The notes under the pieces are model-generated. The model was not told the DNA's origin and searched no databases. It saw only the letters and a program-made list of their open reading frames with translations. Of a DNA stretch of 64,000 nt, positions 21,026 through 44,449 are shown in pieces. The position numbers were made by a program, and so were the translations under genes. Each line of letters begins with the position of its first letter. Within the stretch, counting starts at the first letter, position 1. The stretch spans positions 1 through 64,000 of the forward strand of contig NZ_SIJH01000007.1 in assembly GCF_004762095.1 (NCBI RefSeq), in the 5' to 3' direction. This DNA comes from Tabrizicola caldifontis (GTDB taxonomy: Bacteria > Pseudomonadota > Alphaproteobacteria > Rhodobacterales > Rhodobacteraceae).

Positions 21026-22827
21026 CAGAATTTCCGCTCTGCCGGGGCGATCTTCTTCAGCGGGATGCCACCCTCGGCCTCTGAGGTCAGCGGTTCGGTG
21101 TGCACCGGGCGGTAGTCGAGGCTGACCTTCGCGCCATCGACCCAGGCCAGCGAGTGCTTGCGCCAGTTCACGTCGTCGCGATGCGGGTAATCCTCGTGCG
21201 CATGCGCGCCGCGGCTTTCGGTGCGGGCGTGCGCGGCATAGATCGTGGCCAGCGCGTTCGGCATCAGGTTCGTCAGCTCCAGCGTCTCCATCAGGTCGCT
21301 GTTCCAGATCAGCGACCGGTCGGTGACGTGCAGATCATCAAGCTTGGCCGCGATGGCGGTCATTTTCCTTTCGCCCTCGGCCAGGGTCGCCTCGGCGCGG
21401 AAGACAGCGGCATCGGCCTGCATGGTCTTCTGCATCTCCAACCGCAACTGGGCGGTGGGCACGTTACCCTTGGCATGGCGCAGGGCATCGAACCGGGCCA
21501 GCGCCTTGTCCACCGCGGCCTTGTTGGTGGCGGGCACCGCGGCGGCCCGATCCACCACCTGCCCGGCGCGGATCGCCGCGGCCCGGCCGAAGACCACCAG
21601 GTCGATCAGGCTGTTCGACCCCAGCCGGTTCGCACCGTGCACAGAGGCACAGCCAGCCTCGCCCACCGCCATCAGGCCGGGAAAGACGGCATCTGGGTCG
21701 TCCTTCGTCGGGTTCAGCACCTCGCCCCAGTAGTTCGTGGGGATACCACCCATGTTGTAGTGCACCGTGGGCAGCACCGGGATCGGATCCTTGTGCAGAT
21801 CGACGCCAGCGAAGATGCGGGCGCTTTCGGTGATGCCGGGCAATCGTGCCTCCAGCGTCTCGCGGGGAAGATGGTTGAGATGCAGGTGGATATGGTCGCC
21901 GTTCGGTCCGCAGCCGCGGCCTTCGCGGATTTCCAGCGTCATGCAGCGGCTGACATAATCGCGCGGCGCCAGATCCTTGTAGTGTGGCGCATAGCGTTCC
22001 ATGAAACGCTCGCCGTTGGCGTTGGTCAGATACCCCCCCTCGCCCCGCGCGCCTTCGGTGATGAGACAGCCCGAGCCGTAGATGCCGGTCGGATGGAACT
22101 GCACGAACTCCATGTCCTGCAGGGGCAGACCAGCGCGGGCCACCATGCCGCCGCCGTCGCCTGTGCAGGTATGGGCCGAGGTCGCGCTGAAATAAGCCCG
22201 GCCATAGCCGCCCGTCGCAAGCACCACCATCTTGGCGTTGAAGACATGGATCGTGCCGTCATCCAGTTTCCAGGCGACCACACCGGTGCAGGCGCCATCG
22301 GTGATGATCAGGTCCAGCGCGAAATATTCGATGTAGAATTCGGCGTTGTTCTTCAGGCTTTGACCGTAAAGCGTATGCAGGATCGCGTGCCCCGTGCGGT
22401 CCGCCGCCGCACAGGTGCGCTGCACCGGGGGGCCTTCGCCGAATTCGGTCGTGTGGCCGCCGAAGGGGCGCTGGTAGATCTTGCCCTCTTCGGTGCGGCT
22501 GAAGGGCACACCGTAATGCTCAAGCTCGTAAACGGCCTTGGGCGCCTCGCGCGCCAGGTATTCCATCGCGTCGGTATCGCCCAGCCAGTCCGACCCCTTG
22601 ACGGTGTCGTACATGTGCCATTGCCAGTTGTCGGGCCCCATGTTGCCAAGGCTGGCGGCGATGCCGCCCTGTGCGGCCACCGTGTGGCTGCGGGTCGGGA
22701 AGACCTTGGTCACGCAGGCCGTGCGCAGGCCCTGTTCGGCCATGCCAAGCGTCGCGCGCAGGCCCGCGCCGCCGGCACCCACGACCACCACGTCGTAATC
22801 ATGCGTCTCGTAAGGGTAGGCAGTCAT
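21025..22827 (-). CDS. sdhA: Succinate dehydrogenase flavoprotein subunit
   Basis: 600 residues, typical length. FAD-binding [12 protein letters not shown] at about 15-26; the covalent flavin His is in [11 protein letters not shown]; substrate-site segments [20 protein letters not shown] and [10 protein letters not shown] are intact. It oxidises succinate to fumarate, feeding complex II in the TCA cycle. The stop is overlapped by a small exported-protein gene; sdhD is 10 bp upstream. Confidence 0.98.
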
Positions 22828-22837
22828 ATCGATTCCT

Positions 22838-23209
22838 TCACAGCGCGATGCGGGCCAGGGCGAACAGGCCGGTGGCCGCGATGACCCAGGCCAGCGAGAC
22901 GACGAAGATGATCAGCATCCTGCGTGCCGTGCCCCGGGCGTAATCCTCGATCATCGTGGTCGCTCCCATCGCGAAATGGCGCATCCCCACGATCAGAACC
23001 AGCGCGGTCACGATCGCCGGGAAGGGGCGAGCGAAGGTCTCCAGCACCTCGGCCCGTGTGCCGCCCAGCGCGCTGCCGAAGATGTAAAGCCAGACCGGCA
23101 CAAGAAAAGCCAGGCCCACGGCCGAAACGGTCATCGACCAGTGATGTTCCGTGCCGGCATGGGCGGCACCCTTGCCCTCGGCGCGCTTGCGGGGGGTCAG
23201 ATAGCGCAT
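22838..23209 (-). CDS. sdhD: Succinate dehydrogenase membrane anchor subunit
   Basis: 123 residues from ATG 23209 ([12 protein letters not shown]...), matching the family N terminus. An alternative GTG at 23221 overlaps the sdhC stop. Three hydrophobic helices are visible, with the haem/quinone-region segment [14 protein letters not shown] at the second. It anchors SdhAB to the inner membrane together with SdhC. Confidence 0.93.
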
Positions 23210-23217
23210 GGCGTCCC

Positions 23218-23604
23218 TCACCGAACCAGAAAAATTGTGATCACAGTCAGCACGGCCGAACCGATGATACAGGCCCAGCCCAGCTTTTCCGCCGTCGGGA
23301 TGTCCAGCCCCTTGCCCGCGTCATAGTAAAGGTGCCGCAGGCCGGCCAGATAGTGATACCACACCGCCCACAGCGACCCGGTGAAGATCAGATCCCCGAA
23401 CCAGCTGGTCGCAACCGCATTCGCCAGCGCAAAATAATCGTCCGAGGTCGCCGCGGCCAGAAGCCACCAGACCCCCAGCACGATCCCGGCGATCAGGGCA
23501 TGGCCCGTGATCCGCGTCAGGATCGAGGTCAGCATCGGCACCTGCCAGCGATAGATCTGCAAATGCGGCGAAAGGGGGCGTTCTGCACGCCGGGCGTCTG
23601 CCAT
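23218..23604 (-). CDS. sdhC: Succinate dehydrogenase cytochrome b556 subunit
   Basis: 128 residues from ATG 23604. The SPHLQIYRW N-terminal motif is a family signature, followed by TSILTRITGHAL and three transmembrane helices; YLAGLRHLYYD carries the predicted haem-ligand His. First gene of the sdh operon. The upstream region holds a pair of GTGATCAC palindromes (23759-23789). Confidence 0.95.
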   Translation of the reverse strand: MADARRAERPLSPHLQIYRWQVPMLTSILTRITGHALIAGIVLGVWWLLAAATSDDYFALANAVATSWFGDLIFTGSLWAVWYHYLAGLRHLYYDAGKGLDIPTAEKLGWACIIGSAVLTVITIFLVR

Positions 23605-23758
23605 GGGTCTGGTCCTCACCTCTGGCGGCGCGGGCAGCGATCCGGCCCCGCGCTCGGCTAACGTTCGTTGCCTTGAATAGCGCGGATTTCGCCCGTGTCA
23701 CGCGCGAGAATGCCGCAGACGCAGGATGTTTCCGCTATCCGGGCAGATTTCTTGGCTT

Positions 23759-23789
23759 CGTGATCACGGGCAGAAAATCCGTGATCACG
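23759..23789. promoter_or_regulatory. Twin GTGATCAC palindromes upstream of sdhC, 21 bp apart
   Basis: CGTGATCACG occurs at 23759-23768 and again at 23780-23789, a spacing of exactly 21 bp (two helical turns), 155-185 bp upstream of the sdhC start. The spacer read toward sdhC contains GATTTTCTGCCC. The same palindrome with the same 21-bp phasing and a similar ATTTTC spacer is found three times upstream of sucC. This looks like a shared TCA-cycle operator; the binding protein is not identified. Confidence 0.7.
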
Positions 23790-23808
23790 AATTTCCGATG
23801 GAAATCGT

Positions 23809-24444
23809 TCAGCGTGACAGCAGGGTCGAATCCCAGGTCAGGGCCAGGCCGAAATGGCTGTCGGCATAGTCGGACCCATCGTAGTAGCGGAAGTCGACTG
23901 CCGTCGTCCGCCCAAGTGAATAGGTCATGCCCAGATCCCATTCGCGCTCGCTGCCTGCGTCCTCGACCTGAAAGATGCCGAACTGGCCCGATACTTCGAG
24001 GGCATCGGTTGCCGACCAGGCCGCCCCCAGATAGGCGCTGTTCAGATCCGATTGCGGATCATGCGCCAGGTCCAGCTTTCCGGTCACCGGACCAAGAGGC
24101 ATGCCAAGGCCAAGCGTATATTCCCCGCAGCATTCGCCCCCGTCGTTCGGGTAGTAATAGCGGGTATAGCCGACATCGTAGGTCAGCCCGCCCGCTGTCT
24201 CGTTTCGGTAGCCGAGGTAAAGGTCGACTTCATCCAGCAGGTCGTCGCTGGCCACCTGCCCCCAGATGCCGACATAGAACCCGACGGCCTCGCCCTCGAT
24301 ATAGCCCGAGAAATAGGCGTTGGAACTTCCGCCCTCTTCCTTGTGCTTGTATTCCAGCTTGGCCCCGCCCAGAAGCTCGAACCCCTGCGCCCCGGCCATT
24401 CCTGCCGAAAAGGCCAACACTGCCACGCCTGCGATCATGCGCAT
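23809..24444 (-). CDS. TorF-family putative porin
   Basis: 211 residues with a signal peptide ending GMAGAQG (about residue 18) and alternating amphipathic strands (YFSGYIEGEAVGFYVG, DLYLGYRNETAGGLTYDVGYT) ending in an aromatic-rich C-terminal strand, the pattern of an outer-membrane beta-barrel. TorF family is the best match I can name. Start ATG 24444 has GGAGG 7 nt upstream. It lies between mch and sdhC in the same orientation. Confidence 0.75.
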   Translation of the reverse strand: MRMIAGVAVLAFSAGMAGAQGFELLGGAKLEYKHKEEGGSSNAYFSGYIEGEAVGFYVGIWGQVASDDLLDEVDLYLGYRNETAGGLTYDVGYTRYYYPNDGGECCGEYTLGLGMPLGPVTGKLDLAHDPQSDLNSAYLGAAWSATDALEVSGQFGIFQVEDAGSEREWDLGMTYSLGRTTAVDFRYYDGSDYADSHFGLALTWDSTLLSR

Positions 24445-24549
24445 GCCACTGCCTCCGTTGTTGTTATTCGTGTCATTGTGGCACAACCGGGCGCCGGGCT
24501 GAACCCCCGGATCGCCAGATATTGCGGTTCTTGGCCGGAAACCTGCCAC

Positions 24550-25572
24550 CTATCGCGGCAGCAGCGCCCAGTAGTCAAGGTCCAGCAGTACCTCGGGCAG
24601 ATATTTCCCGTCCGCCCCCCGCAGCCTTCCGGCTGCGCCGCGTGTTGCCACCAGCCGAAGCCGCAATGCCCCGATACCGGGCACACCGGTCTCGGCGCCG
24701 TCAAGCACTTCGGACCAGGCCCGCACCGTGTCGCCAGCGAAACAGGGGTTCACATGCGCACCCGCGTTCAGGGCCACGATGAACTGGGCATTCGCCAGGC
24801 CGTTGAACGACAGCGCACGCGCCAGGCTGATGACATGGCCGCCATAGATCAGGCGCCGGCCGTCCTCGCGCTGCGTCACGTCGAAATGGACCTTGGCGGT
24901 GTTCTGCCAAAGCCGCGTGGCCAGCATGTGTTCGGCCTCCTCGACCGTGACGGCATCGACATGGTCGATCACCTCGCCTACCGCATAGTCGCTCCACCGG
25001 TGCGGTTCGCCCGCCAGTTCGAAGTCGTAGCGGCTGAAATCCAGACCCTCGGGCACCACCAGAGACTGCGGCGCCACCACGGGCGCCAGCTCCGGCACAT
25101 GCACCGGCACCTCGACCTCGCGTCGCCGCTTCCTGACCAGCACCCAGCGGACATATTCCAGCACCACCTCGTCGCGCTGGTTCAGCCCGCGCGTGCGGAC
25201 CCAGACCACACCGGTCGCCCCGGACGAGGTTTCCTTAAGCCCGATCACTTCGCTTTCCGCCCGCAGCGTGTCGCCCGGCCAGACCGGCTGCAGCCAGCGC
25301 CCCTCGGCGTAGCCCAGGTTCGCCACCGCGTTAAGGCTGATGTCGGGCACCGTCTTGCCGAAGACCGTATGGAAGGCGATCAGATCGTCCAGCGGGCTGG
25401 CCCGCAAGCCCACCGACCGCGCGAACTCATCCGACGAATACACCGCGCCCCGCGCCGGATAAAGCGCGTGGTAAAGCGCCCTTTCCCCGCCACCCAGGGT
25501 GCGCGGAACGGCATGCCGGATCACCTCGCCCAAGGCGTAGTCCTCGAAAAAACGGCCAGGATCCGTCTTCAT
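24550..25572 (-). CDS. mch: Mesaconyl-CoA hydratase (beta-methylmalyl-CoA dehydratase)
   Basis: 340 residues from ATG 25572, beginning MKTDPGRFFEDYALGE. Two MaoC-like hot-dog halves are visible; HTVFGKTVPDISLNAVANLG and AHVNPCFAGDTVRAWSEV are characteristic of Rhodobacter Mch. It hydrates mesaconyl-C1-CoA to beta-methylmalyl-CoA in the EMC pathway. Its start overlaps the DUF1737 stop (ATGA). The mcl2-nnrU-DUF1737-mch order agrees with what I recall of R. sphaeroides. Confidence 0.92.
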   Translation of the reverse strand: MKTDPGRFFEDYALGEVIRHAVPRTLGGGERALYHALYPARGAVYSSDEFARSVGLRASPLDDLIAFHTVFGKTVPDISLNAVANLGYAEGRWLQPVWPGDTLRAESEVIGLKETSSGATGVVWVRTRGLNQRDEVVLEYVRWVLVRKRRREVEVPVHVPELAPVVAPQSLVVPEGLDFSRYDFELAGEPHRWSDYAVGEVIDHVDAVTVEEAEHMLATRLWQNTAKVHFDVTQREDGRRLIYGGHVISLARALSFNGLANAQFIVALNAGAHVNPCFAGDTVRAWSEVLDGAETGVPGIGALRLRLVATRGAAGRLRGADGKYLPEVLLDLDYWALLPR

Positions 25573-25772
25573 AGCTCGCCCAGCTTCAGATCGGGGTGAT
25601 AGTCGCCCGCCACCTCCTTCACCACCGCCTGCCCGCAACGCATCACGCCGTTGGCCGCATCAAAGGCATAGCTGGGCGAGCCGTGCAGCGCCCAGCCCTT
25701 GTTCAGCGCCGCCGTCACCTTGTGACAGAACTCCGACGTGTCGTCCGCACTCAGGAACCGATAGAGCTTCAT
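25569..25772 (-). CDS. DUF1737 protein
   Basis: 67 residues beginning MKLYRFLSADDTSEFCHKVT, with ALNKGWALHGSP, the hallmark of the short DUF1737 family. It is cytosolic and of unknown role, yet conserved next to mch. Overlaps mch by ATGA. A family-B repeat separates it from nnrU. Confidence 0.85.
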   Translation of the reverse strand: MKLYRFLSADDTSEFCHKVTAALNKGWALHGSPSYAFDAANGVMRCGQAVVKEVAGDYHPDLKLGEL

Positions 25773-25807
25773 CGCCTCACCAATTTGCAGCAATCCGAAC
25801 GGAATTG

Positions 25808-25863
25808 CCTTCCTTTCTGCCCAAACATCCCACGGGGGTGCGAGGGTGTGAAACCCCCGCCTC
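25808..25863. repeat. Interspersed repeat family B, copy 1 (diverged)
   Basis: CATCCCACGGGGGTGCGAGGGTGTGAAACCCCCG corresponds, with several mismatches, to the copies at 40392-40446 and 52544-52597. It fills the gap between nnrU and DUF1737, starting directly after the nnrU stop. The hairpin arms (GGGTGTG/AAACCC region) are less perfect than in the other copies. Confidence 0.75.
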
Positions 25864-25867
25864 GCCC

Positions 25868-26413
25868 TCAGCCGAAGGGCCAGACGCCCAGCCAGTTGTG
25901 GACCCAGCCGATTGCCCCCAGCACCACCACCGCCCCGACGACCGCGCCGATTTCCCTGCCCACCGGAGCGGGCGCCGGGGGCGCCGGCCGCGGCTCGGCC
26001 CGATTGATCACGATCACCTCGACCACCGCCCAGGCCAGGATGCCCCCGAACAGGATCACGCTGGCAAGATCCCCGTTCACCAGCAGGTGCGCCACAGCCC
26101 AGACCTTGACCGCCGTCAGCTGCGGATGCCGGATCACGCGCGTGATCCGCGTCTTCATGCCGGATGCGGCATAGAGATAGACCGCGAACAGCATCAGCAG
26201 ATTGTTCACATGCGTCAGGAACACGGGCGGATACCAAAGGTCGATCTGTTCCACGCCGCGATAGCCGATGACCATCAGCACCAGACCTGCCAGCACGCCC
26301 AGCGCAACCACACCCCGGCCCGCGTCGCCCATCGCCGCCCGCTGCGCCGGGGCCAGGCGCCTGAACAGATGCGCGGCCCACCACAGCGCCAGTCCCAGAA
26401 CGATCAAGGTCAT
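25868..26413 (-). CDS. NnrU family membrane protein
   Basis: 181 residues with four or five hydrophobic helices. GYRGVEQIDLWYPP, MKTRITRVIRHPQLTAVKVWA and VNGDLASVILFGG are typical of NnrU/DUF1295-like proteins. NnrU was named from denitrification clusters but is also conserved beside mcl2 and mch without denitrification genes. ATG 26413 is preferred over GTG 26416. Confidence 0.87.
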   Translation of the reverse strand: MTLIVLGLALWWAAHLFRRLAPAQRAAMGDAGRGVVALGVLAGLVLMVIGYRGVEQIDLWYPPVFLTHVNNLLMLFAVYLYAASGMKTRITRVIRHPQLTAVKVWAVAHLLVNGDLASVILFGGILAWAVVEVIVINRAEPRPAPPAPAPVGREIGAVVGAVVVLGAIGWVHNWLGVWPFG

Positions 26414-26449
26414 CACGGTCCTCCGAACGGTTTCGGTGCCACCTTGGCC

Positions 26450-27292
26450 CTAAACCGCCAGCGCCGCAATCGCCTCGGCCTTCTCGGTCAGCGCCTTCGC
26501 GGTGGCCACATGCAGGTTCTCGACGATCCGGCCATCAACCACGGCCACGCCCTCGCCCTTCGCACGCGCCTCGGCATAGGCCTCGATCTGGCGGCGTGCC
26601 AGCGCCACCTCCTCCTCCGAGGGCGCAAAGACCGCGTTCGCGATTTCCAGCTGGGCCGGGTGAATCAGCGTCTTGCCGTCGAAGCCCATGTCGCGGCCCT
26701 GCTCGCATTCCGCGCGCAGGCCCGCCTCGTCCCGGAAGGCGTTGAACACACCATCGACGATCAGCTTGCTCTCTGCCCGCGCGGCCAGAACGCATGTCCC
26801 CAGCGCCGCCATCAGCGGCAAGCGGTCCGCGCGATGCCGCGCACCCAGCTCTCTGGCCAGATCGTTCGTGCCCATCACCATCCCCTCAAGCCGGGGATGG
26901 GCGGCGATGGCGGCAGCGTTCAGGCAGCCACGCGCCGTCTCAAGCATCGCCCATAGCGGCTTTGCCACCCGTGTCCCGACGGCGTCCAGGTCTTCCGGCC
27001 CGTTCACCTTGGGCACCAGCACCGCATCCGCGCCGGGATGGCCGGCAAAGGCCAGCATGTCCGCTGCGCCCCACGGCGTCTCCAGCCCGTTCACGCGCAC
27101 GATCCGCAGCCGCCCGCCGAAATCGGCCCGGTGCAGCTCGTCAGACAGCAGCGCCCGCGCACGCACCTTTTCTTCGGGGGCGACGGCATCTTCCAGATCG
27201 AAGATGATCGCATCGGCCGGCAGCTCACGCGCCTTTTCCAGCGCTCGTTCCTTCGAGGCCGGGATGTAGAGGACAGACCGACAGGGACGCAT
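26450..27292 (-). CDS. mcl2: (3S)-malyl-CoA thioesterase (Mcl2, CitE-like)
   Basis: 280 residues of the HpcH/HpaI-CitE fold: RSVLYIPASKERALEKA, IFDLEDAVAPEEK, VPKVNGPEDL, LETARG, MGTNDLARELG and GFDGKTLIHPAQ. In Rhodobacter the gene next to nnrU and mch encodes the (3S)-malyl-CoA thioesterase that hydrolyses malyl-CoA to malate in the last part of the EMC pathway, and context drives this call. A malyl-CoA/beta-methylmalyl-CoA lyase cannot be excluded by eye. First gene of the mcl2-nnrU-DUF1737-mch operon. Confidence 0.85.
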   Translation of the reverse strand: MRPCRSVLYIPASKERALEKARELPADAIIFDLEDAVAPEEKVRARALLSDELHRADFGGRLRIVRVNGLETPWGAADMLAFAGHPGADAVLVPKVNGPEDLDAVGTRVAKPLWAMLETARGCLNAAAIAAHPRLEGMVMGTNDLARELGARHRADRLPLMAALGTCVLAARAESKLIVDGVFNAFRDEAGLRAECEQGRDMGFDGKTLIHPAQLEIANAVFAPSEEEVALARRQIEAYAEARAKGEGVAVVDGRIVENLHVATAKALTEKAEAIAALAV

Positions 27293-27452
27293 GACGACTC
27301 ACCTCCGCGCAAGATTCTTGCGCTTGAAAGCACGGATCGGACAGAAACGGCAAGCGCATTTTTGCCGCAGCGCAGCAAGAGCACCGCATCAACTGGGTCG
27401 AGGCCCTTGCTGGCAGCCTTTTCCCACGTCCGGCCCGCCACAGGCCAGTTCC

Positions 27453-27554
27453 ATGAGGCAGCTCGCGTTTGCCCTGTCGCTTGGCTTCGCCGGGATCATC
27501 CTCGCCACCCGGCTTGCCTTTTCCAACCCGAACTGGGGCGGCCCTGACGGGTGA
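27453..27554 (+). CDS. Possible truncated small exported protein
   Basis: A 33-residue reading MRQLAFALSLGFAGIILATR is almost entirely a signal-peptide-like sequence and then stops after NPNWGGPDG. A GTG (27551) overlapping the stop opens another frame (VIACLVGRHGQARHAIV). Together they resemble the start of a small periplasmic family common in Rhodobacteraceae, broken by a frameshift. It lies alone between divergent mcl2 and the convergent TSUP gene. It may be a remnant or chance. Confidence 0.3.
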   Translation: MRQLAFALSLGFAGIILATRLAFSNPNWGGPDG

Positions 27555-27627
27555 TCGCGTGTCTGGTCGGACGCCACGGCCAAGCCCGCCACGCGATCGT
27601 TGCGCCCCCGCTTGCGCGAGGCCCGGG

Positions 27628-28377
27628 TCAGGCCAGCTTGCTCACGCCGTCCCAGATCAGCTTGACCGAGATCATGAGAAGCGCCCAGGTCACCAGCCGG
27701 AAGAACAGACGTTCCGGCATCAGCCGCACCAGCCTTACCCCGGCAAATACGGCGACGACCGAAGGCAGGGCCAACACTGCCGCAATCTTCAGGTTGCCGA
27801 TGTTCAGCTGTCCCAGCGCGTAATACGGCAGCAGCTTCACCGCATTGATCACCGCGAAGGCAATCGTCGTCGTCCCGGCAAAGACCGCCTTCGAAAGGCC
27901 GAGCGGCAGGGTATAGACCTGCCAGGGCGGCGCGCCCGCGTGGCTGACGAAACTGGTGAATCCCGCCAGCGCGCCCCAGAACAAGCCCGGCACCACCTCT
28001 GCCCGGCGCGGCTCTGCCACCGCTGGGCGGCGGGCAAGGATGTTCAGCGCGAAGGCAAAGCCGATCAGCCCGACCAGGAATGTGACCGCTGCCTCGGGAA
28101 CCAGACTGGCCGTGGCCCAGCCAATGCCGATTCCCGCCACGGCACCCGGAAGGACGATGGCCAGCACCCGCCGGTCGTAATGCCGCCGGTAGGCCCACAA
28201 CCCGAAGACATCCGACACGACATAGACCGGCAGCAGCAGCCCCGCCGCCGCCACCGGGTTGATGACCAGCGCCAGGACAGGCACCCCCAGCATCCCGACC
28301 ACCGGGACGCCGCCTTTGCTCATCCCGACCAGCGCCGCAGCGATCAGCGCTGCCGCCCAGAACCAAAGATCGTGCAT
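27628..28377 (-). CDS. TSUP (TauE/SafE) family transporter
   Basis: 249 residues with about eight transmembrane helices and the family-typical GMSKGGVPVVG near the N terminus and SFVSHAGAPPWQVYTLP in the middle. TSUP members export sulfite, sulfoacetate or other anions, so the substrate is open. Start ATG 28377 was chosen because GGAGG lies 5 nt upstream; the in-frame ATG at 28392 has no such site. Divergent from mdh. Confidence 0.88.
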   Translation of the reverse strand: MHDLWFWAAALIAAALVGMSKGGVPVVGMLGVPVLALVINPVAAAGLLLPVYVVSDVFGLWAYRRHYDRRVLAIVLPGAVAGIGIGWATASLVPEAAVTFLVGLIGFAFALNILARRPAVAEPRRAEVVPGLFWGALAGFTSFVSHAGAPPWQVYTLPLGLSKAVFAGTTTIAFAVINAVKLLPYYALGQLNIGNLKIAAVLALPSVVAVFAGVRLVRLMPERLFFRLVTWALLMISVKLIWDGVSKLA

Positions 28378-28393
28378 CGCGCCCTCCGCCATG

Positions 28394-28454
28394 GGTTACC
28401 GCTAACGCCCTTTCGGGACAGCCGAAAGCGGCATTTTCTCGCATACAATTGTAT
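28394..28454. promoter_or_regulatory. Two palindromic sites between TSUP gene and mdh
   Basis: GGTTACCGCTAACG (28394-28407) is a CG-centred near-palindrome of the LacI type and shares the CGCTAACG core with the site upstream of prpE (59316-59329). Further on, ATACAATTGTAT (28443-28454) is a perfect 12-bp palindrome with TTGTATAC character, as in GntR/FadR-type operators. Both are 80-140 bp upstream of mdh. No -35/-10 pair could be assigned with confidence. Confidence 0.45.
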
Positions 28455-28491
28455 ACCGATTGCCCTGCAAGGCTGGACAGAACCCCGATAA

Positions 28492-29496
<1,005 letters not shown>

Positions 29497-29524
29497 GCGG
29501 CCCCTGATCTGAAGCGCTTCCCCG

Positions 29525-29556
29525 AACACCCCCGGACCCGTTTCCGGGGGTGTTTG
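29525..29556 (+). terminator. Rho-independent terminator of mdh
   Basis: An 11-bp perfect stem, AACACCCCCGG (29525-29535) with CCGGGGGTGTT (29544-29554), encloses an 8-nt loop. It is 29 bp after the mdh stop. The U tract is short, being folded partly into the stem. Confidence 0.85.
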
Positions 29557-29949
29557 CCTGTGATGCCACCGCCCGGCTTGCCGAACCGGCGCCGCCTGAG
29601 GACCGCGACCCGACCGGCCGTCCCTCGGCTGGCCTGCCCGCACCGCCCGGCAGCCCGGCCCTGCCCCATGTCGCCACCAGTCCGGCCGCGGCACCGTCCT
29701 TTACTCTTGTACCTTTCCCCAAATACTCCCGCCGCAGGCAGCGCGGCTTTTCCAGCGGGCATGCACTGCTCGAAATGCACCGGGCACCGCCCGGTCAGGG
29801 TGTCGGGGATATTCTGCCGCGAACGGCCAAACGTTTGAAATCATGAACGAGCACGGAATGATCTACCACGGACGGGACCGCACCCCCTTGCCCTGCCGGG
29901 CGGAATCCGGCATCCCCAAGGCCAGACCCATAGCCCTGGAGGGCCCACC
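29557..29949. other. Intergenic region without a recognised gene
   Basis: About 390 bp between the mdh terminator and a 56-aa gene. Several short frames are open, but none has a recognisable product. An AT-richer patch around 29698-29730 could hold a promoter for the downstream genes. I see no clear RNA gene. Confidence 0.5.
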
Positions 29950-30120
29950 ATGGACTATTCGAAATCCGGCAACCCCAAGGGTGCCCGCCGGGCACCGCGT
30001 GGGCCGGACCACGCCCAGAAGGGCGCGCCGAAATCGACCACGCCGCCGCGAGAAACCAAGGAACAGCTCCTCGCCCGGATGAAGGCTGCCGCGACCGCGA
30101 AGAAGGACCAGAAAGGCTGA
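29950..30120 (+). CDS. Small basic conserved hypothetical protein (56 aa)
   Basis: The frame MDYSKSGNPKGARRAP...LLARMKAAATAKKDQKG is rich in Lys, Arg, Ala and Pro, with a short C-terminal helix. I recall near-identical short proteins starting MDYSK in other Rhodobacteraceae; function unknown. GGAGGGCCCACC lies upstream of ATG 29950. Its TGA stop overlaps the presumed CTG start of the methyltransferase. Confidence 0.7.
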   Translation: MDYSKSGNPKGARRAPRGPDHAQKGAPKSTTPPRETKEQLLARMKAAATAKKDQKG

Positions 30121-30782
30121 GACCTGCCTCCCCCTACCTCGCCCCCGGCTTCTATGAGGACGCCATCGCGAAGGGCCGCCACCGCGAGATCGTCGGCGGT
30201 CGCTGGGACGAAACCGCCCGCATCCAGATGCAGGTCCTTCTGAACGAGGGCATGACGCCGGAGGATCACCTGCTGGATATCGGCTGCGGCGCGCTGCGGC
30301 TTGGCCACAAGGCCGTGCCGTTCCTGAAGCCCGGTCACTACTGGGGCACCGATGCCTCGTTGGCCTTGATGCGGCACGGCCGGACAACCGAACTGCCGGA
30401 CCCCGAGGCGCTGCCGCTTGACCATCTGATCGAGGACGCCGACTTCGTCTATCCCGGGGTGCCCGACGGGATCACGCTTGCCATCGCCTTCGGGGTCTTC
30501 ACCCATCTGCCTGCCCCGGCGCTGACCACGGCGCTGCGCAACCTGCGCCGCTTTGGACGTCTCAAAGCCTTTCTGTTCACCGTCTTCATCGCCCCGGATG
30601 GTGCTGGTCCGTTCCGGCAGGCCGATGGCGTCGTGACCCATTCGGACCGCCCGCCCTATCACATCACCGCAGCTGCGGCCGAGGCGATGATCGGTTCAGC
30701 CGGCTTCACTCCGGCGCGCCGACCGGCACTTCTGCCCCGGGGTCAGGTGCTCTGGGCCGCCATCCCGCCCTGCACGCCCTAG
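30117..30782 (+). CDS. Class I SAM-dependent methyltransferase, probable non-ATG start
   Basis: SAM-binding motif I is LLDIGCGALRLGHKAV; later motifs are AFGVFTHLP and a C-terminal substrate cap. The first ATG, 30228, lies only about 20 residues before motif I and leaves out an upstream in-frame, protein-like stretch (YLAPGFYEDAIAKGRHREI, RWDETARIQ). No ATG, GTG or TTG exists upstream in frame; CTG 30117, overlapping the preceding TGA as CTGA, is the only near-cognate codon before that stretch. I therefore place the start there (221 aa). Substrate unknown. Confidence 0.65.
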   Translation: MRPASPYLAPGFYEDAIAKGRHREIVGGRWDETARIQMQVLLNEGMTPEDHLLDIGCGALRLGHKAVPFLKPGHYWGTDASLALMRHGRTTELPDPEALPLDHLIEDADFVYPGVPDGITLAIAFGVFTHLPAPALTTALRNLRRFGRLKAFLFTVFIAPDGAGPFRQADGVVTHSDRPPYHITAAAAEAMIGSAGFTPARRPALLPRGQVLWAAIPPCTP

Positions 30783-32255: not shown

Positions 32256-32352
32256 TCGGGCCGGGATCCGGTGAAGGATCGTGCAGGTTTCCTTGCAGAA
32301 TCCGGCCCGTGCCTTGCGGGTCGAATCACGGAGCCATTGGCGCGGAACGCTC

Positions 32353-32403
32353 GCGATCACAAATTTTCCAGTTGTGATCACGAAATTTCAGGGCGTGATC
32401 ACA
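32353..32403 (+). promoter_or_regulatory. Three GTGATCAC palindromes phased at 21 bp upstream of sucC
   Basis: GATC cores lie at 32355, 32376 and 32397, exactly 21 bp apart, within GCGATCACA, TGTGATCACG and CGTGATCACA. The two spacers both contain an ATTTTC/AATTTC element, as in the sdhC array. The array ends 111 bp before sucC. A CGCTAACGG half-site follows at 32429. Regular two-turn spacing implies cooperative binding by a dimeric regulator on one DNA face; its identity is unknown. Confidence 0.75.
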
Positions 32404-32514
32404 TGATGCATTTTTCTGCGCCCTTCAGCGCTAACGGACGGAAATCCGCGTAGGATTACGCCTGCATTCATGCGATGAGGCCGGCAAGTTCATCAAGGGA
32501 CAGGGTGCTGCGCC

Positions 32515-33708
32515 ATGAACATCCACGAATACCAGGCCAAGGCGCTTCTGCGCAGCTACGGCATCCCGGTCAGCGATGGCCGCGTCGTGCTGAAGGCCGA
32601 AGAGGCCAAGACCGCCGCGGGCGAGCTGGACGGGCCGCTTTGGGTCGTCAAGGCGCAAATCCATGCAGGCGGCCGCGGCAAGGGCCATTTCAAGGAACCC
32701 GAGGCCGGCGAGAAGGGAGGCGTCCGCCTGGCACGCAGCGTGGGCGAGGCGGCCGAATTCGCCCGCCAGATGTTGGGCCGCACGCTTGTCACCGTGCAGA
32801 CCGGCCCGGCGGGCAAGCAGGTGAACCGCATCTACATCGAGGACGGCTCGGACATCGAGAAGGAATTCTACCTTGCCCTGCTGATCGACCGGAAATCCAG
32901 CCGCATCTCGATCGTCGCCTCGACCGAGGGCGGCATGTCGATCGAGGACGTGGCGCATGCGACGCCCGAAAAGATCCTGACCTTCACCATCGACCCGGCG
33001 ACCGGCCTGCAGGATTTCCACGGCCGCCGCGTGGCCTTTGCCCTGGGCCTCCAGGGCCAGCAGGTCAAGCAATGCGTGCAGATCGTGAAGAAGCTTTACC
33101 AGCTGTTCATCGACAAGGACATGGACATGCTGGAGATCAACCCCTTCTGCGTGCTCAAGGACGGCTCGCTGCGGCTTCTTGACGCCAAGATGGGCTTCGA
33201 CGGCAACGCGATCTACCGCCACCCCGACATCGCCGCCCTGCGCGACGAGACGGAGGAGGATCCCAAGGAACTCGCAGCCTCTAAGTTCGACCTGAACTAC
33301 ATCGCGCTTGATGGCGAGATCGGCTGCATGGTCAACGGCGCGGGCCTCGCGATGGCCACCATGGACATCATCAAGCTTTACGGGGCGGAGCCCGCCAACT
33401 TCCTCGACGTCGGCGGCGGCGCGACGAAGGAGAAGGTGACGGAGGCCTTCAAGATCATCACCAGTGACCCGAACGTGAAGGGCATCCTCGTCAACATCTT
33501 CGGCGGCATCATGCGCTGCGACATCATCGCCGAGGGCATCGTCGCCGCCGTGAAGGAGGTCGGGCTGAAGGTGCCGCTGGTGGTGCGGCTGGAAGGCACC
33601 AATGTCGAGCTCGGCAAGAAGATCATCAACGAATCCGGCCTGAACGTGATCGCCGCCGACGACCTGTCGGACGCGGCAAGGAAGATCGTCAAGGCGGTGA
33701 AAGGCTGA
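32515..33708 (+). CDS. sucC: Succinyl-CoA ligase (ADP-forming) beta subunit
   Basis: 397 residues. It begins [19 protein letters not shown]; the ATP-grasp domain has [19 protein letters not shown] and MLEINPFCV, and the CoA-ligase domain has [13 protein letters not shown] and [16 protein letters not shown]. With SucD it makes succinate, ATP and CoA from succinyl-CoA. First gene of sucC-sucD-(terminator)-sucA-sucB. Confidence 0.98.
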
Positions 33709-33713
33709 AGCCC

Positions 33714-34598
33714 ATGTCCATCCTCGTGAACAAAGCGACCAAAGTCATCTGCCAGGGCTTCACCGGCAGCCAGGGCACCTTCCATTCCGAACAGGCCATC
33801 GCCTATGGCACGCAGATGGTCGGCGGCGTGACCCCCGGCAAGGGCGGGACCGAACACCTCGGCCTGCCCGTCTTCGACAGCGTGCACGAGGCCGTGGCCA
33901 GAACCGGCGCCGATGCGACCGCGATCTACGTTCCCCCGCCCTTCGCCGCCGACTCGATCCTCGAGGCCATCGACGCCGAGGTGCCGCTGATCGTCTGCAT
34001 CACCGAAGGCATTCCGGTCCTCGACATGATGAAGGTCAAGCGCGCCCTCATCAACTCGAAGTCGCGCCTGATCGGCCCGAACTGCCCCGGCGTCCTGACC
34101 CCCGGCGAATGCAAGATCGGCATCATGCCGGGCTCGATCTTCTCCAAAGGGTCGGTTGGGGTCGTGTCACGCTCGGGCACGCTTACCTATGAGGCCGTGA
34201 AGCAGACCACCGACGTGGGCCTTGGCCAGACCACTGCCGTCGGCATCGGCGGCGACCCGATCAAGGGCACCGAACACATCGATGTGCTGGAGATGTTCCT
34301 CGCCGACCCTGACACCCATTCGATCATCATGATCGGCGAGATCGGGGGCAGCGCGGAAGAGGAAGCCGCCCAGTTCCTCGCAGATGAAAGGAAGCGCGGC
34401 CGCTGGAAGCCCACCGCCGGCTTCATCGCCGGCCGCACCGCCCCGCCCGGCCGCCGCATGGGCCACGCGGGCGCGATCGTTGCCGGCGGCAAGGGCGATG
34501 CCGGGTCCAAGATCGAGGCGATGAAATCCGCCGGAATCGTGGTGGCCGACAGCCCTGCGGGCCTGGGCGAAGCCGTACTGAAAGCGATCAAGGGCTGA
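33714..34598 (+). CDS. sucD: Succinyl-CoA ligase alpha subunit
   Basis: 294 residues. CoA-binding [18 protein letters not shown], the [20 protein letters not shown] segment, and the phosphohistidine motif [10 protein letters not shown] (His at about 251) are intact. The start is 5 bp after the sucC stop. A hairpin with a T tract follows before sucA. Confidence 0.98.
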
Positions 34599-34667: not shown

Positions 34668-37637
34668 ATGACCGACCAATCCCCGAACGCCGCCTTCGCC
34701 GCCTCGTCCTTCCTCGACGGGGCCAATGCCGATTATGTCGATCAGCTGGCCGCGCGCCACGCCGCCGACCCGAACAGTGTCGATCCTCAATGGGCCGAGT
34801 TCTTCAAGGCCCTCGGCGACAGCGAGATCGACGCCAAGCGCGCCGCGCAAGGCCCGTCCTGGGCGCGGGCCGACTGGCCGCCTACCCCGGCAGATGACCT
34901 GACCGCCGCGCTGACCGGCGAGTGGGCTGCGCCCCCGTCGGCGAAGGAAGCCCGCGCCGCCGGCGCCAAGATCGCCGCCAAGGCCGCCGAGGCAGGCGTC
35001 GCACTGTCCGAAGACCAGATCCAGCGCGCTGTGCTCGATTCCATCCGCGCGCTGATGGTCATCCGCGCCTACCGGATCCGCGGCCACCTGGCCGCCGACC
35101 TCGACCCGCTGGGGCTGGCCGAGAAGAAGTCCCACCCCGAGCTCGACCCGGCCTCCTACGGCTTCACCGAAGCCGACATGGACCGGCCGATCTTCATCGA
35201 CAACGTGCTGGGCCTGACGCACGCCTCGATGCGCGAGATCATCGACATCCTGAAGCGCACCTATTGCGGCACCTTCGCGCTGCAATACATGCATATTTCC
35301 GACCCCGAACAATCGGCCTGGCTCAAGGAACGGATCGAGGGCTACGGCAAGGAAATCCAGTTCACGCGGGAAGGCCGGAAGGCCATCCTGAACAAGCTGG
35401 TCGAGGCCGAGGGCTTCGAGAAGTTCCTGCACGTCAAGTACATGGGGACCAAGCGTTTCGGCTTGGACGGGGGCGAGGCGCTGATCCCGGCGATGGAGCA
35501 GATCATCAAGCGCGGTGGCGCGCTGGGGGTGAAGGAAATCATCATCGGCATGCCGCACCGCGGCCGGCTGAACATCCTCGCCAACGTGATGCAGAAGCCC
35601 TACCGCGCGATCTTCCACGAATTCCAGGGCGGCTCCTACAAGCCCGAGGATGTGGATGGCTCGGGCGACGTGAAATACCACCTCGGCGCCTCGAGTGACC
35701 GCGAGTTCGACGGCAACAAGGTGCACCTCAGCCTGACCGCCAACCCCAGCCACCTCGAAGCCGTCAACCCGGTAGTGCTGGGCAAGGCGCGGGCCAAGCA
35801 GGATCAGCTCAACGACACCGCCGAACGGATCGCGGTGCTGCCGGTGCTGCTGCACGGCGACGCGGCCTTCGCCGGTCAGGGTGTGGTGGCGGAATGCCTG
35901 CAACTGTCGGGCATCAAGGGCCACCGGACGGGGGGTTGCATCCACATCATCGTCAACAACCAGATCGGCTTCACCACCGCACCCGCCTTCAGCCGGACAT
36001 CGCCCTACCCCACCGACATCGCGCTGATGGTCGAGGCGCCGATCTTCCACGTGAACGGCGACGACCCCGAGGCCGTGGTCCATGCTGCCAAGGTGGCCAC
36101 CGAGTTCCGCCAGAAGTTCCACAAGGACGTGGTCATCGACATCTTCTGCTACCGCCGCTTCGGTCACAACGAAGGCGACGAGCCGATGTTCACCAACCCG
36201 GCGATGTACAACCGCATCCGCAAGCAGAAGACGACGCTCCAGCTCTACACCGAACGGCTGGTGGCCGACGGGCTGATCTCGGCCGGCGAGATCGAGGACA
36301 TGAAGGCCGCCTTCCAGGCCCGCCTCAACGAGGAGTTCGAGGCCGGCAAGGCCTTTCTGCCGAACAAGGCCGACTGGCTGGACGGGCGCTGGAAGAACCT
36401 GCAGACCAAGGATCTGAACACCTACCAGCGCGGTGAAACCTGGATCAAGGCCGAGACCTTGGCCGAGGTAGGCGCCGCGCTGACCCGCGTGCCCCCGGGC
36501 TTCGATCTGCACAAGACCGTCGCCCGCCAGCTTGAGGCCAAGGCCCGTATGTTCGAGACCGGACAGGGCTTCGACTGGGCCACTGCCGAGGCGCTGGCCT
36601 TCGGCTCGCTTCAGCTCGAAGGCTTCCCCGTGCGTCTGGCGGGCCAGGACTGCACCCGCGGCACCTTCAGCCAGCGCCATTCCGGCTGGATCGACCAGAC
36701 CACCGAGGAACGCCACTACCCCTTGAACCACATCCGCCCGGGACAGGCGCGGTATGAGGTCATCGACTCGATGCTTTCGGAATATGCCGTGCTCGGCTTC
36801 GAATACGGCTATTCGCTGGCCGAACCGAATGCGCTGACGATCTGGGAAGCCCAGTTCGGCGATTTCGCCAACGGTGCACAGATCATGTTCGACCAGTTCA
36901 TCAACTCGGGCGAGTCGAAATGGCTGCGCATGTCTGGCCTCGTCGTCCTCCTGCCCCACGGCTTCGAGGGCCAGGGCCCGGAACATTCCTCCGCGCGACT
37001 GGAACGGTTCCTGCAACTGTCTGCGGAAGACAACTGGATTGTTGCCAACTGCACGACGCCGGCGAACTATTTCCACATCCTGCGCCGTCAGCTGCACCGG
37101 ACCTATCGCAAGCCGCTGATCCTGATGACGCCCAAATCGCTCTTGCGCCATCCGATGTGCGTCAGCCGGGCCGAGGATTTCACCGACGGCTCGACCTTCC
37201 ACCGCGTGCTGTGGGACGATGCGCAGAAGGGCAACTCGACCCTGAAGCTCAAGGCCGACGAGAAGATCCGGCGCGTCATCCTCTGCTCGGGCAAGGTCTA
37301 TTACGACCTTCTGGCCGAACGCGACGCGCAGAAGCTGGACGATGTCTATCTGCTGCGGGTCGAACAGCTTTACCCCGTGCCGACGATCTCGCTCGGCCAG
37401 GAACTCGCGCGCTTCCCGAAGGCCGAGTTCATCTGGTGCCAGGAAGAGCCGAAGAACCAGGGCGCCTGGTCCTTCATCGAGCCCGAGATGGAGGCGATCC
37501 TGACACGTGTGCGCGGCAAGCCTACGCGCATGTCCTATGCCGGCCGCAAGGCCAGCGCCTCGCCCGCAACGGGCCTCGCCTCCCGCCACAAGCAGGAACA
37601 GGAAACCCTTGTCGCCCAGGCCCTTGGCCTGAACTGA
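34668..37637 (+). CDS. sucA: 2-oxoglutarate dehydrogenase E1 component
   Basis: 989 residues. It begins with the [14 protein letters not shown] and [11 protein letters not shown]1o N-terminal domain; later come GMPHRGRLN, the TPP/Mg site region around [14 protein letters not shown] and [20 protein letters not shown], and the C-terminal [12 protein letters not shown]. It decarboxylates 2-oxoglutarate with TPP and succinylates the lipoyl group of SucB. 25 bp separate it from sucB. Confidence 0.98.
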
Positions 37638-37662: not shown

Positions 37663-38883
37663 ATGACTGACGTTATGGTGCCCGCCCTCGGCGAATCCGT
37701 GTCCGAGGCCACCGTGTCCACCTGGTTCAAGAAGCCGGGCGATGCGGTGAAGCAGGACGAGATGCTCTGCGAGCTCGAGACCGACAAGGTCTCGGTCGAG
37801 GTGCCCTCGCCGGTCTCGGGCGTCCTGGCCGAGATCCTCGCGCCCGAGGGCACGACGGTAGCCGCCAACGCGCGGCTGGCGATCGTGACCGAAGGCGCCG
37901 CCGCAGCGCCGAAGGCCGAGGCCGCCCCTGCCCCCGCGCCTGCCGCCATGACCACTGCGCCCGCCGCCGCGAAATCGGTCGAGGACGCACCCAGCGCGAA
38001 GAAGGCCATGGCCGAGGCCGGCCTGACCCCTGACCAGGTTCAGGGCACCGGCCGTGACGGCCGAATCATGAAGGAGGACGTGGCCCGCACCGTGGCCGGA
38101 GCCGCAGGAACCGCCGCGGCCGCCGCAGCTCCGGCCCCCGCGCCCGCCGCCCTGCCCCGCGCCCCCGTTCCGGCCGAGGACGCCGCGCGCGAGGAACGGG
38201 TCAGGATGACCCGCCTGCGCGCCACCATCGCGCGGCGGCTCAAGGACGCGCAGAATACTGCGGCGATGCTGACCACCTACAATGAGGTGGACATGTCCGC
38301 GATCATGGAACTGCGCAACACCTACAAGGACGCCTTCGAGAAGAAGCACGGCGTGAAGATGGGCTTCATGTCCTTCTTCGTGAAGGCGTGCTGCCATGCC
38401 CTGAAGGAGATCCCCGAGGTCAACGCCGAAATCGACGGCCAGGACATCGTCTACAAGAACTACGTCCACATGGGCGTTGCGGTCGGCACGCCCTCGGGCC
38501 TTGTCGTCCCGGTGGTGCGCGATGCCGACCGGATGTCCTTTGCCGAAATCGAGAAGAAGATCGCCGAACTCGGCGCCCGCGCCCGCGACGGGAAGCTCAG
38601 CATGGCGGAGATGCAGGGCGGCTCCTTCACCATCTCGAACGGCGGGGTCTATGGCAGCCTGATGTCCTCCCCCATCCTCAACCCCCCGCAGTCCGGCATC
38701 CTTGGCATGCACAAGATCCAGGACCGCCCCGTGGTGGTGAACGGCCAGATCGTCATCCGCCCGATGATGTATCTCGCCCTCAGCTACGACCACCGGATCG
38801 TGGACGGCAAGGGTGCGGTGACGTTCCTGGTGCGGGTGAAAGAGGCGCTGGAGGACCCGCGTCGGCTGCTGATGGATTTGTGA
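37663..38883 (+). CDS. sucB: Dihydrolipoyl succinyltransferase (E2o)
   Basis: 406 residues: one lipoyl domain with the target Lys42 in [11 protein letters not shown], an Ala/Pro-rich linker, an E3-binding domain ([23 protein letters not shown]), a second Ala/Pro linker, and the catalytic domain ending with SYDHRIVDG (His377, Asp381). It transfers succinyl to CoA in the 2-oxoglutarate dehydrogenase complex. A GGAGAAATTGAG ribosome-binding region precedes the ATG. Confidence 0.98.
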
Positions 38884-40391: not shown

Positions 40392-40446
40392 CTTCTTCTT
40401 CCGTTCGCAAATATCCCACGGAGGTCCGGGGGTGTGAAACCCCCGG
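40392..40446. repeat. Interspersed repeat family B, copy 2
   Basis: CTTCTTCCGTTCGCAAATATCCCACGG is followed by a perfect hairpin CCGGGGGTGTGAAACCCCCGG. It agrees closely with 52544-52597. It starts directly after the MAPEG stop and ends 29 bp before lpd. Relative to transcription it is inverted compared with copies 1 and 3. Confidence 0.88.
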
Positions 40447-40475
40447 TTCCCCAACCAGACCAGAGGATCCGACCC

Positions 40476-41864
40476 ATGGCAGATTTCGACACCATCTTCA
40501 TCGGCGCCGGCCCCGGCGGTTATGTCGGCGCGATACGCGCCGCACAGCTTGGCCAGAAGGTCGCCTGCGTCGAGGGGCGCGAGACGCTGGGCGGGACCTG
40601 CCTGAACGTGGGCTGCATCCCCTCGAAGGCACTGCTGCATGCCACGCACCTGCTGCACGAGACGCACGAGAACTTTGAAAAGATGGGCCTCATGGGCGCC
40701 GCCCCCAAGGTCGACTGGGTGAAGATGCAGGCCTACAAGGCCGATGTCGTTGCCGGCAACACGAAGGGCATCGAATTCCTGTTCAAGAAGAACAAGGTCA
40801 CCTGGCTGAAGGGCTGGGCCACGATCCCCGCCCCCGGTCAGGTCAAGGTCGGGGACGAGATCCACACTGCGCGAAACATCGTCATCGCCACCGGTTCGGA
40901 ACCCTCCACCCTGCCTGGCGTCGAGATCGACGAGCAGACCGTTGTCACCTCGACGGGCGCGCTGACCCTTGCCCAGCCCCCGAAATCGATGGTGGTGATC
41001 GGCGCGGGCGTGATCGGGCTGGAGATGGGCTCGGTCTATGCCCGGCTTGGAACGGAAGTGACGGTGGTCGAATATCTCGATGCCATCACCCCCGGCATGG
41101 ATGCCGAGGTCGCCAAGACCTTCCAGCGCATCCTTGCGAAGCAGGGCCTGAAATTCATCCTGGGCGCGGCGGTGCAATCGGTAACCAAGAGCAAGAAGGG
41201 TGCCACTGTCAGCTACAAGCTGAAGAAGAATGACAGCGAGGCCACGCTGGAGGCCGAGATCGTCCTCGTCGCCACCGGCCGCAAACCCTATACGGCAGGT
41301 CTTGGCCTGGAGGCGCTGGGCGTCGAGATGGGCCCGCGCGGCACCATCAAGACCGACGCGCATTTCCAGACCAGCATTCCCGGTCTCTACGCCATTGGCG
41401 ACACCATCGCCGGTCCGATGCTGGCCCACAAGGCGGAAGACGAGGGCATGGCCGTCGCCGAGATCCTGGCCGGGAAGCATGGCCACGTGAACTACGGCGT
41501 CATTCCGGGCGTGATCTACACCACGCCCGAGGTGGCGAATGTAGGCAAGACCGAGGAACAGCTGAAAGAGGATGGCCGGGCCTACAAGGTGGGCAAGTTC
41601 CCCTTCATGGGCAACGCCCGCGCAAAGGCGGTGTTCCAGGCGGAGGGTTTCGTGAAAATCCTTGCCGACGCCACGACCGACCGCATCCTGGGCGCCCACA
41701 TCATCGGCCCGGCCGCGGGCGACCTGATCCACGAGATCTGCGTCGCGATGGAATTCGGCGCCTCGGCGCAGGATCTGGCGCTGACCTGCCACGCGCATCC
41801 GACCTGGTCCGAAGCCGTGCGCGAGGCCGCGCTCGCCTGCGGCGACGGCGCGATCCACGCCTGA
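40476..41864 (+). CDS. lpd: Dihydrolipoyl dehydrogenase (E3)
   Basis: 462 residues from ATG 40476. FAD-binding [15 protein letters not shown], redox pair GGTCLNVGC (Cys42, Cys47), NAD-binding [15 protein letters not shown], second FAD motif [14 protein letters not shown] and the catalytic [10 protein letters not shown] (His441, Glu446). It reoxidises dihydrolipoyl groups of SucB, and possibly of other 2-oxoacid dehydrogenases. An upstream in-frame ATG at 40434 falls inside the repeat and was not used. Confidence 0.97.
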
Positions 41865-43804: not shown

Positions 43805-44449
43805 TCACCCTGTCAGATGCCGCAGGCCCTGCGTCACGTCGGTCCGCACGGCCAGCCGCAGGCCGGGTTCGTCCCCCGCCTTCAGCGCGGCCAGGATCAT
43901 CCGGTGATGCTGCGGCGGTTCGCGGCGCTTCACCTTTTCATACACCGCCCGCATCGTCGGACCCAGTTGCAGCCAGACCGTTTCGCACATCGCCAACATC
44001 GCCGGGGTCTGGGCGCGCAGGTAGAGCGTTCGGTGAAACTCCAGGTTGGTGCGCACATAGGCAACGGCTTCGCCCTTCACCGCGGCTTCGGCATTGGCCA
44101 TGTTGATCGCAGCCAGCCGCTCGATCAGCGCGAAATGCGCGCGCGGCAGGGCGCGGGCGGCCATCTCGGGTTCCAGCAGCGCACGAATCGCCGCCAGCTC
44201 CTCGATCCTTTCGGGGGTCAGCTCCGGCGTCGAAATCCGGCCCGAGGAGGAAAGCGTCAGCGCCCCTTCCGCCACCAGCCGCCGCACCGCCTCGCGCGCA
44301 GGGGTCATCGACACGCCGAACTGCTTGCCAAGGCCCCGCAGCGTCAGCGACTGGCCGGGATCCAGTTCGCCATGCATCACCTGCTGGCGCAGCGTTCGAT
44401 ACAGCTTTTCATGCGCGGCGGCATTGGGATCGGGGGGGCGGGTGCTCAT
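43805..44449 (-). CDS. GntR-family transcriptional regulator (FCD type)
   Basis: 214 residues. The N-terminal winged helix (YRTLRQQVMHGELDPGQSLTLRGLGKQFGVSMTPAREAV) is followed by an all-helical FCD ligand-binding domain with the metal-site residues EFHRTLY and HHRMI. FadR-subfamily regulators typically sense carboxylic acids. ATG 44449 gives the canonical start; the in-frame start at 44485 was not used. It lies directly upstream of pirin. Confidence 0.9.
   Translation of the reverse strand: MSTRPPDPNAAAHEKLYRTLRQQVMHGELDPGQSLTLRGLGKQFGVSMTPAREAVRRLVAEGALTLSSSGRISTPELTPERIEELAAIRALLEPEMAARALPRAHFALIERLAAINMANAEAAVKGEAVAYVRTNLEFHRTLYLRAQTPAMLAMCETVWLQLGPTMRAVYEKVKRREPPQHHRMILAALKAGDEPGLRLAVRTDVTQGLRHLTG

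Follow-up and report, generated by a model that had tools for sequence, protein, structure and literature searches.

A phased tandem array before sucC and sdhC of Tabrizicola caldifontis as the probable operator of an AkgR-type GntR regulator

Introduction

The closest described relative of the system analyzed here is the AkgR regulon of Rhodobacter sphaeroides; AkgR is presumably the product of RSP_0981. In the accessible part of one report GTGATCAC is given as the motif of AkgR, a GntR-type transcriptional activator (PMC6365646), and in the accessible part of another the GntR regulator RSP_0981 is predicted to control sucCD, sdh and the 2-oxoglutarate dehydrogenase genes (PMC4344238). The same part of PMC6365646 proposes the GTGATCAC palindrome as the site of PS417_07240, a gntR-like gene of the deoxyribonate cluster of Pseudomonas simiae, whose product is 32% identical to AkgR.

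The DNA analyzed here (the window, i.e. the whole stretch of 64,000 nucleotides) carries the same palindrome in tandem before sucC and before sdhC. An earlier note, made from the letters alone, had drawn attention to these repeats and had named an AkgR-type activator of TCA-cycle genes as a candidate for the protein that reads them. The analysis supports, with a probability of roughly 0.8, the reading of the array as a tandem operator of the GntR-FCD regulator encoded at 43805-44449 (- strand), the local AkgR-type protein, by which suc and sdh would be jointly activated.

Results

Tandem arrays before sucC and sdhC

The array upstream of sucC and the genes that follow it are these:

32353..32360, + strand: distal (third) operator copy GCGATCAC, with one mismatch
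32374..32381, + strand: middle operator copy GTGATCAC, its position kept in the relatives read
32395..32402, + strand: proximal operator copy GTGATCAC, its first base 120 bp before the sucC ATG
32515..33708, + strand: sucC, by NCBIfam match
33714-34598, + strand: sucD, by NCBIfam match, following sucC
34668-37637, + strand: sucA, by NCBIfam match, after sucD
37663-38883, + strand: sucB, by NCBIfam match, after sucA
40434-41864, + strand: lpd, by NCBIfam match, after sucB

Both spacers (AAATTTTCCAGTT and GAAATTTCAGGGC) are 13 bases long, giving a step of 21 bp, and each contains a T-run that ends in C at spacer base 8. The three-copy, 21-bp-phased array described in the earlier note is borne out as to its GATC cores (32355, 32376 and 32397), but its first site is imperfect. 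The ATTTTC-like element that the note placed in each spacer corresponds to the T-run, which does occupy the same place in the window, but its sequence is not kept in relatives; ATTTTC as a motif of its own was ruled out, as the relatives read keep only the A/T richness of the spacer centre.

When the 29-base unit was scanned with up to two mismatches, three matches were obtained in the window against 0.01 expected, and 0 of 100 shuffles reached three. The search for GTGATCAC-N13-GTGATCAC that had been proposed was run on all 3.48 Mb of the genome (53 contigs) and returned exact pairs only before sucC and sdhC; pairs with one to three mismatches occur elsewhere in that genome.

On the opposite strand the sdhC array is followed by a promoter-like element (its -10 hexamer read by eye) and the sdh genes:

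23781..23788, - strand: distal operator copy GTGATCAC (exact)
23760..23767, - strand: proximal operator copy GTGATCAC (exact), 21 bp from the distal copy
23674..23701, - strand: promoter-like GTGACA-N16-TATTCA, whose box begins 66 bp beyond the first base of the proximal copy
23218..23619, - strand: sdhC
22838-23221, - strand: sdhD, after sdhC
21025-22827, - strand: sdhA, after sdhD
18109-18885: sdhB, by Pfam iron-sulphur domains and place

The claim that sdhC is preceded by the same unit thus holds for exact copies and for the 21-bp step, with two copies instead of three; the spacer (GGATTTTCTGCCC, read towards sdhC) also has a T-run ending in C at base 8. Between the sdh and suc operons (23809-30662) lie MaoC-like, DUF1737 and CitE-like genes, which stay together with both operons in most fetched relatives. 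The only exact TGTGATCACA in the whole genome lies at 23236-23245, at the 3' end of sdhC beside an AATTTTT run, and may reflect coding constraint or a further site.

Conservation and grammar of the array

A pair of GTGATCAC copies with 2-32 bases between them is present in 223 of 248 family genomes (each genus represented once, with a single exception), compared with 1 of 248 for a reversed-motif control; absence of the array from related genomes, which the earlier note had named as evidence against its proposal, is therefore not the case. Upstream regions were read in 32 relatives from the array-positive genomes listed (with the window, 33 of the 223), each of which had an exact pair by selection, with spacing free between 10 and 40 bp. 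In the window and the fetched stretches, which were chosen around listed pairs, 67 exact pairs have spacers of 12-13 bases: 33 stand before sdhC and 32 before sucC, while the remaining two stand before sucA (L079) and by no identified gene (L099). The arrays are thus placed upstream of the suc and sdh operons, as expected for AkgR operators.

Of the 32 sucC arrays, 29 have a step of 21 bp and three have one of 20 bp; for sdhC arrays the counts are 31 and 2 of 33 (window included in each). Three sdhC start codons (L079, L082 and L091) were probably called too far upstream, the proximal site lying 10-23 bp before the ATG, and these arrays are included when the steps are counted but not in the A/T test described below (30 of 33). 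In 24 of 32 sucC arrays the proximal copy starts 114-122 bp before the ATG. Two copies are the norm and a third is a lineage extension: an in-phase third copy with at most one mismatch occurs in the window, before sucC in L065 and before sdhC in L079, and the third copy is perfect in G135 and, before sucC, in the congener G191. A T and an A flank the palindrome, giving TTGTGATCACAAA before sucC (21-bp-step arrays: 29 sucC, 31 sdhC). Because the search required the whole palindrome, its full conservation is partly by choice; the flanking T and A were not required, yet they are kept.

Several other arrangements were seen. Pairs with 5- and 10-base spacers occur (L100, L101, L102), and extra pairs with 13- and 12-base spacers (L099, G042:C16:228293-228321, and G230:C8:298943-298970, respectively) are on contigs that carry neither the sdh nor the suc pair. 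In G177 (L079, G177:C4) the pair at 6932-6960 is directly before sucA, no sucC or sucD being found between, as if the array stayed with the operon head when gene order changes. Outside the family, any pair is present in 18 of 285 genomes of the class, with a 13-base spacer in 2 of the 18 (counted by eye). Two genomes of another family, f15, have pairs, with a 14-base spacer (L213, G261:C1:1130808-1130837) and a 13-base spacer (L214, G393:C189:992-1020); no regulator match at E<=1e-40 was found in either G261 or G393.

The GntR-FCD regulator gene

A candidate for the protein that reads the array is encoded in the window itself:

43805..44449, - strand: GntR-FCD regulator, the proposed AkgR-type protein, from its Pfam GntR and FCD domains, co-occurrence and neighbours

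Its domains score 51.9 bits for GntR (PF00392; cut-off 27) and 65.4 bits for FCD (PF07729; cut-off 24.3). McbR of Escherichia coli presumably differs from this protein in its targets and motif; its structure (PDB 4p9f) is, by sequence, the closest solved one (E 4.1e-23, residues 18-203). Among the named matches listed, several from Tabrizicola are 91-94% identical and those from Rhodobacter up to 93%; none of the 80 named loci retained comes from R. sphaeroides. In a class sample of 289 genomes the regulator is found at E<=1e-50 in 4 of 4 family genomes and 0 of 285 others, one of which has a match at 3.9e-45.

The gene lies 2 kb beyond lpd, close to the sdh/suc cluster, and it has lpd or a suc gene nearby in 13 of the 30 loci read with 1.5-kb flanks and in 54 of the 80 read with flanks of up to 10 kb; it adjoins sdhB in G051, and elsewhere it is unlinked to sdh/suc or the contig ends. 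General autoregulation of the regulator is not supported, as an exact GTGATCAC within 300 bp upstream was found in only 4 of 110 regulator loci (one stretch, L162, being incomplete at its start). In G187 the regulator ortholog is preceded, at a distance of about 40 bp, by a pair of GTGATCAC copies separated by 5 bases (L100, G187:C1:3357949-3357969), which suggests possible autoregulation in some lineages. In the FCD domain an Asp appears to be changed to Asn and the last His to Asp, both kept among the aligned orthologs. These are two of the usual FCD metal-ligand positions, and the ligand of the regulator may be unusual.

Co-occurrence of regulator and array

With an ortholog cut-off of E<=1e-50 (set after the table had been seen) and counting by eye, 220 of the 248 family genomes have both regulator and array, 21 have neither, 3 have the array only and 4 the regulator only (Fisher p 1.5e-23, in a test that ignores kinship). 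Among the four genomes with the regulator alone, a sucC match is lacking in G122 and G155, the nearest to sucC in G147 is a sucC-like gene (52% identity), and G040 has a pair with one mismatch at -137/-116. In the array-only genomes G019, G096 and G114 the best regulator matches are 36, 28 and 38% identical; another protein can therefore pair with the array, or else the assembly lacks the gene (completeness 77% for G096 and 100% for G114). From array-negative genomes 20 sucC loci were taken; L262 was dropped for want of a recognizable start, leaving 19 readable and 18 of them regulator-negative. None of the 18 has a pair at a 20- or 21-bp step with up to two mismatches in total, and one (G017) has a pair with three.

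Part of this association is explained by shared descent, since a control GntR protein, the one control regulator run, is also associated with the array, less strongly (185 both, 20 neither, 38 array only, 5 protein only at E<=1e-50, by eye; Fisher p 2.8e-10). This PdhR-like protein (C23:157319-158083), whose nearest solved structures include PdhR and whose relative in G114 is encoded about 4 kb away from sdhB, was rejected as the binder because 38 genomes with the array lack it and 5 without the array have it. In a SucC tree with 51 rows, 7 changes (bootstrap range 6-8) are required to account for the 18 regulator-negative rows, of which well-supported branches force only 2. Some lineages seem to have lost regulator and array together.

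The alternative that survives best is that the GntR gene only travels along while the array is bound by another regulator, such as NtrC, an unlisted protein or the LacI-type RSP_1663 protein, which is presumably CceR. The three genomes with the array and without a GntR ortholog favor it, as does the prediction, in the accessible part of PMC4344238, that RSP_1663 and NtrC regulate sdh in R. sphaeroides. The RSP_1663 motif printed there is an inverted repeat, [A/G/T]GTT-N6-8-AAC[A/C/T], and no match to it was found on either strand of 32256-32514 or 23620-23808; it is thus missing from the sucC and sdhC upstream regions of the window. Moreover, GTGATCAC is printed for AkgR in the part of PMC6365646 available, and the second GntR protein fits the array pattern worse. 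A different binder is accordingly considered unlikely, and binding by the GntR-FCD regulator remains the preferred reading.

The promoter-like box

In 20 of 33 regions upstream of sdhC a GTGAC[ACT] box, taken to be a -35 element, begins between +65 and +68, counted from the proximal copy. In four others it stands at +56, +77, +86 and +87, near whole turns from +67; since these outliers are few, a whole-turn rule for the position of the box is suggestive only. None was found in the remaining 9 of 33 regions, 3 of which have an incomplete stretch. For sucC, a sigma-70 score scan placed the best promoter at scattered positions (-35 at +56 in 9 of 32, rows read by eye), and no sucC promoter is therefore claimed. 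Transcription starts of R. sphaeroides, which bear on promoter distances, are reported in PMC7471390.

The position of the box bears on a second alternative, in which the GntR protein does bind the array but acts as a repressor of sdh and suc, and is released when its FCD domain takes up a ligand. Repression is common among GntR proteins, which lends this reading some plausibility; the sdhC sites, however, stand some 60 bp ahead of the promoter-like box and not over it. AkgR, furthermore, is called a transcriptional activator in the available part of PMC6365646. Repression appears improbable, if less remote than the structural explanation taken up below, and activation is preferred.

A/T tracts between array and gene

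In both operons the stretch that leads from the array towards the gene is marked by A/T tracts:

32403..32455, + strand: A/T tracts at a phase of about 10 bp, from the array towards sucC; 10-bp power reached by 0.005 of 200 mononucleotide shuffles
23707..23759, - strand: phased A/T tracts from the sdhC array to the promoter-like box; 10-bp power reached by 0.035 of 200 mononucleotide shuffles

In profiles anchored at the proximal copy of 21-bp-step arrays (29 sucC, 31 sdhC), A/T peaks fall at +9, +19, +29, +39, +49 and +56 before sucC and at +9, +19, +28, +39, +51 and +58 before sdhC. Over +8 to +60 the correlation between the two profiles is r 0.63; it is best at lag 0 and turns negative at lag 5. 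In both operons the column power at 10.25 bp over +8 to +60 is above all 2000 random-shift controls, and over +60 to +105 it is likewise above all 2000, though lower. For stretches upstream of the array 55, 481, 292 and 1807 of 2000 controls are at or above the observed value, the lowest being sucC -75 to -25.

Taken singly, 24 of 32 sucC stretches and 17 of 30 sdhC stretches reach 0.05 against dinucleotide shuffles, versus 3 of 18 regulator-negative sucC stretches, the relatives not being independent samples. Against mononucleotide shuffles the counts are 28/32, 21/30 and 3/18, with 7/32 for sucC upstream of the array. The regulator-negative control regions were taken at a set distance from the ATG, leaving out L243 (G040) since the array is present there. 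A/T content is 0.57 in array-positive stretches against 0.45 in controls; the shuffles keep composition. The ladder thus has the same offsets in both operons, accompanies the regulator and is mostly missing without it.

These tracts, phased at about 10 bp, and the GATC in each core could be taken to mean that the array is a structural or methylation element (curved DNA, GATC methylation) with no dedicated binding protein, a very remote prospect given that the array accompanies one regulator gene across 248 genomes, is not seen upstream of sucC in the 18 genomes read that lack the regulator (one weak three-mismatch pair aside) and keeps a flanking T and A that were not part of the search. With the array read as an operator, it is possible, and proposed here only tentatively, that the ladder has a function in the AkgR system, as a track, either bent or bound by the alpha-CTD, through which the dimers are coupled to RNA polymerase.

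Discussion

The palindrome expected of an AkgR operator is present in the window, and since GTGATCAC is in print as the AkgR motif (accessible part of PMC6365646), the AkgR-type candidate of the earlier note holds. Independent support is given by the conservation of the array and its co-occurrence with the GntR gene of the window. From these comparisons we infer that the window regulator is an AkgR ortholog, and likewise its binding, cooperativity, activation, the extent of the operons and any ligand.

Since proteins of the GntR-FCD type bind as dimers, one dimer would be expected on each GTGATCAC palindrome (best as TTGTGATCACAAA before sucC), and the 21-bp step would place two dimers, or three in the case of sucC here, on one face of the helix at a distance of two turns. 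Dimers aligned in this way could act together, and the layout of the sites thus makes cooperative binding plausible. At sdhC the bound dimers would stand some 60 bp ahead of the -35-like box, and in both operons A/T tracts with a period of 10 bp run from the array in the direction of the gene. The A/T found about 6 bp from each dyad would be suited to contacts of the wings with the minor groove, a face at which, by analogy with the FadR-DNA structure, the protein would sit. Further tracts would present minor grooves on the face of the dimers at each turn from operator to promoter, so that dimers about 100 bp upstream might reach RNA polymerase; such tracts would fit either intrinsic bending or landing places for the alpha-CTD of the polymerase between activator and promoter. 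The bound regulator would raise transcription of sucCDAB-lpd and sdhCDAB together, and the outcome would be a tuning of the part of the TCA cycle from 2-oxoglutarate to fumarate.

A control region of the TCA cycle, present in 222 of the 247 genera of the family that were sampled, would thereby be tied to one regulator gene, with a grammar of two palindromes two turns apart, a phased A/T stretch and then the promoter. Its wide conservation, together with the apparent joint losses, makes the helical-phase rules of a GntR-type activator directly testable.

The 21-bp tandem and the A/T ladder were not found described in the literature, in a partial search that the primary AkgR study (Imam 2015) lay outside. 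As far as the accessible parts of the sources go, the AkgR regulon of R. sphaeroides shares with this system the GTGATCAC motif (PMC6365646) and the suc and sdh targets (PMC4344238), and differs from it in that the sites here form a 20/21-bp tandem (three before sucC) followed by a phased A/T stretch; for the PS417_07240 system the part of PMC6365646 available describes one site per cluster, and the genes are not those of the TCA cycle. An AkgR-type GntR regulator acting on TCA operons is thus a known kind of system, to which the present work adds the regulator gene of the window and, subject to Imam 2015, the strict two-site grammar and the A/T ladder.
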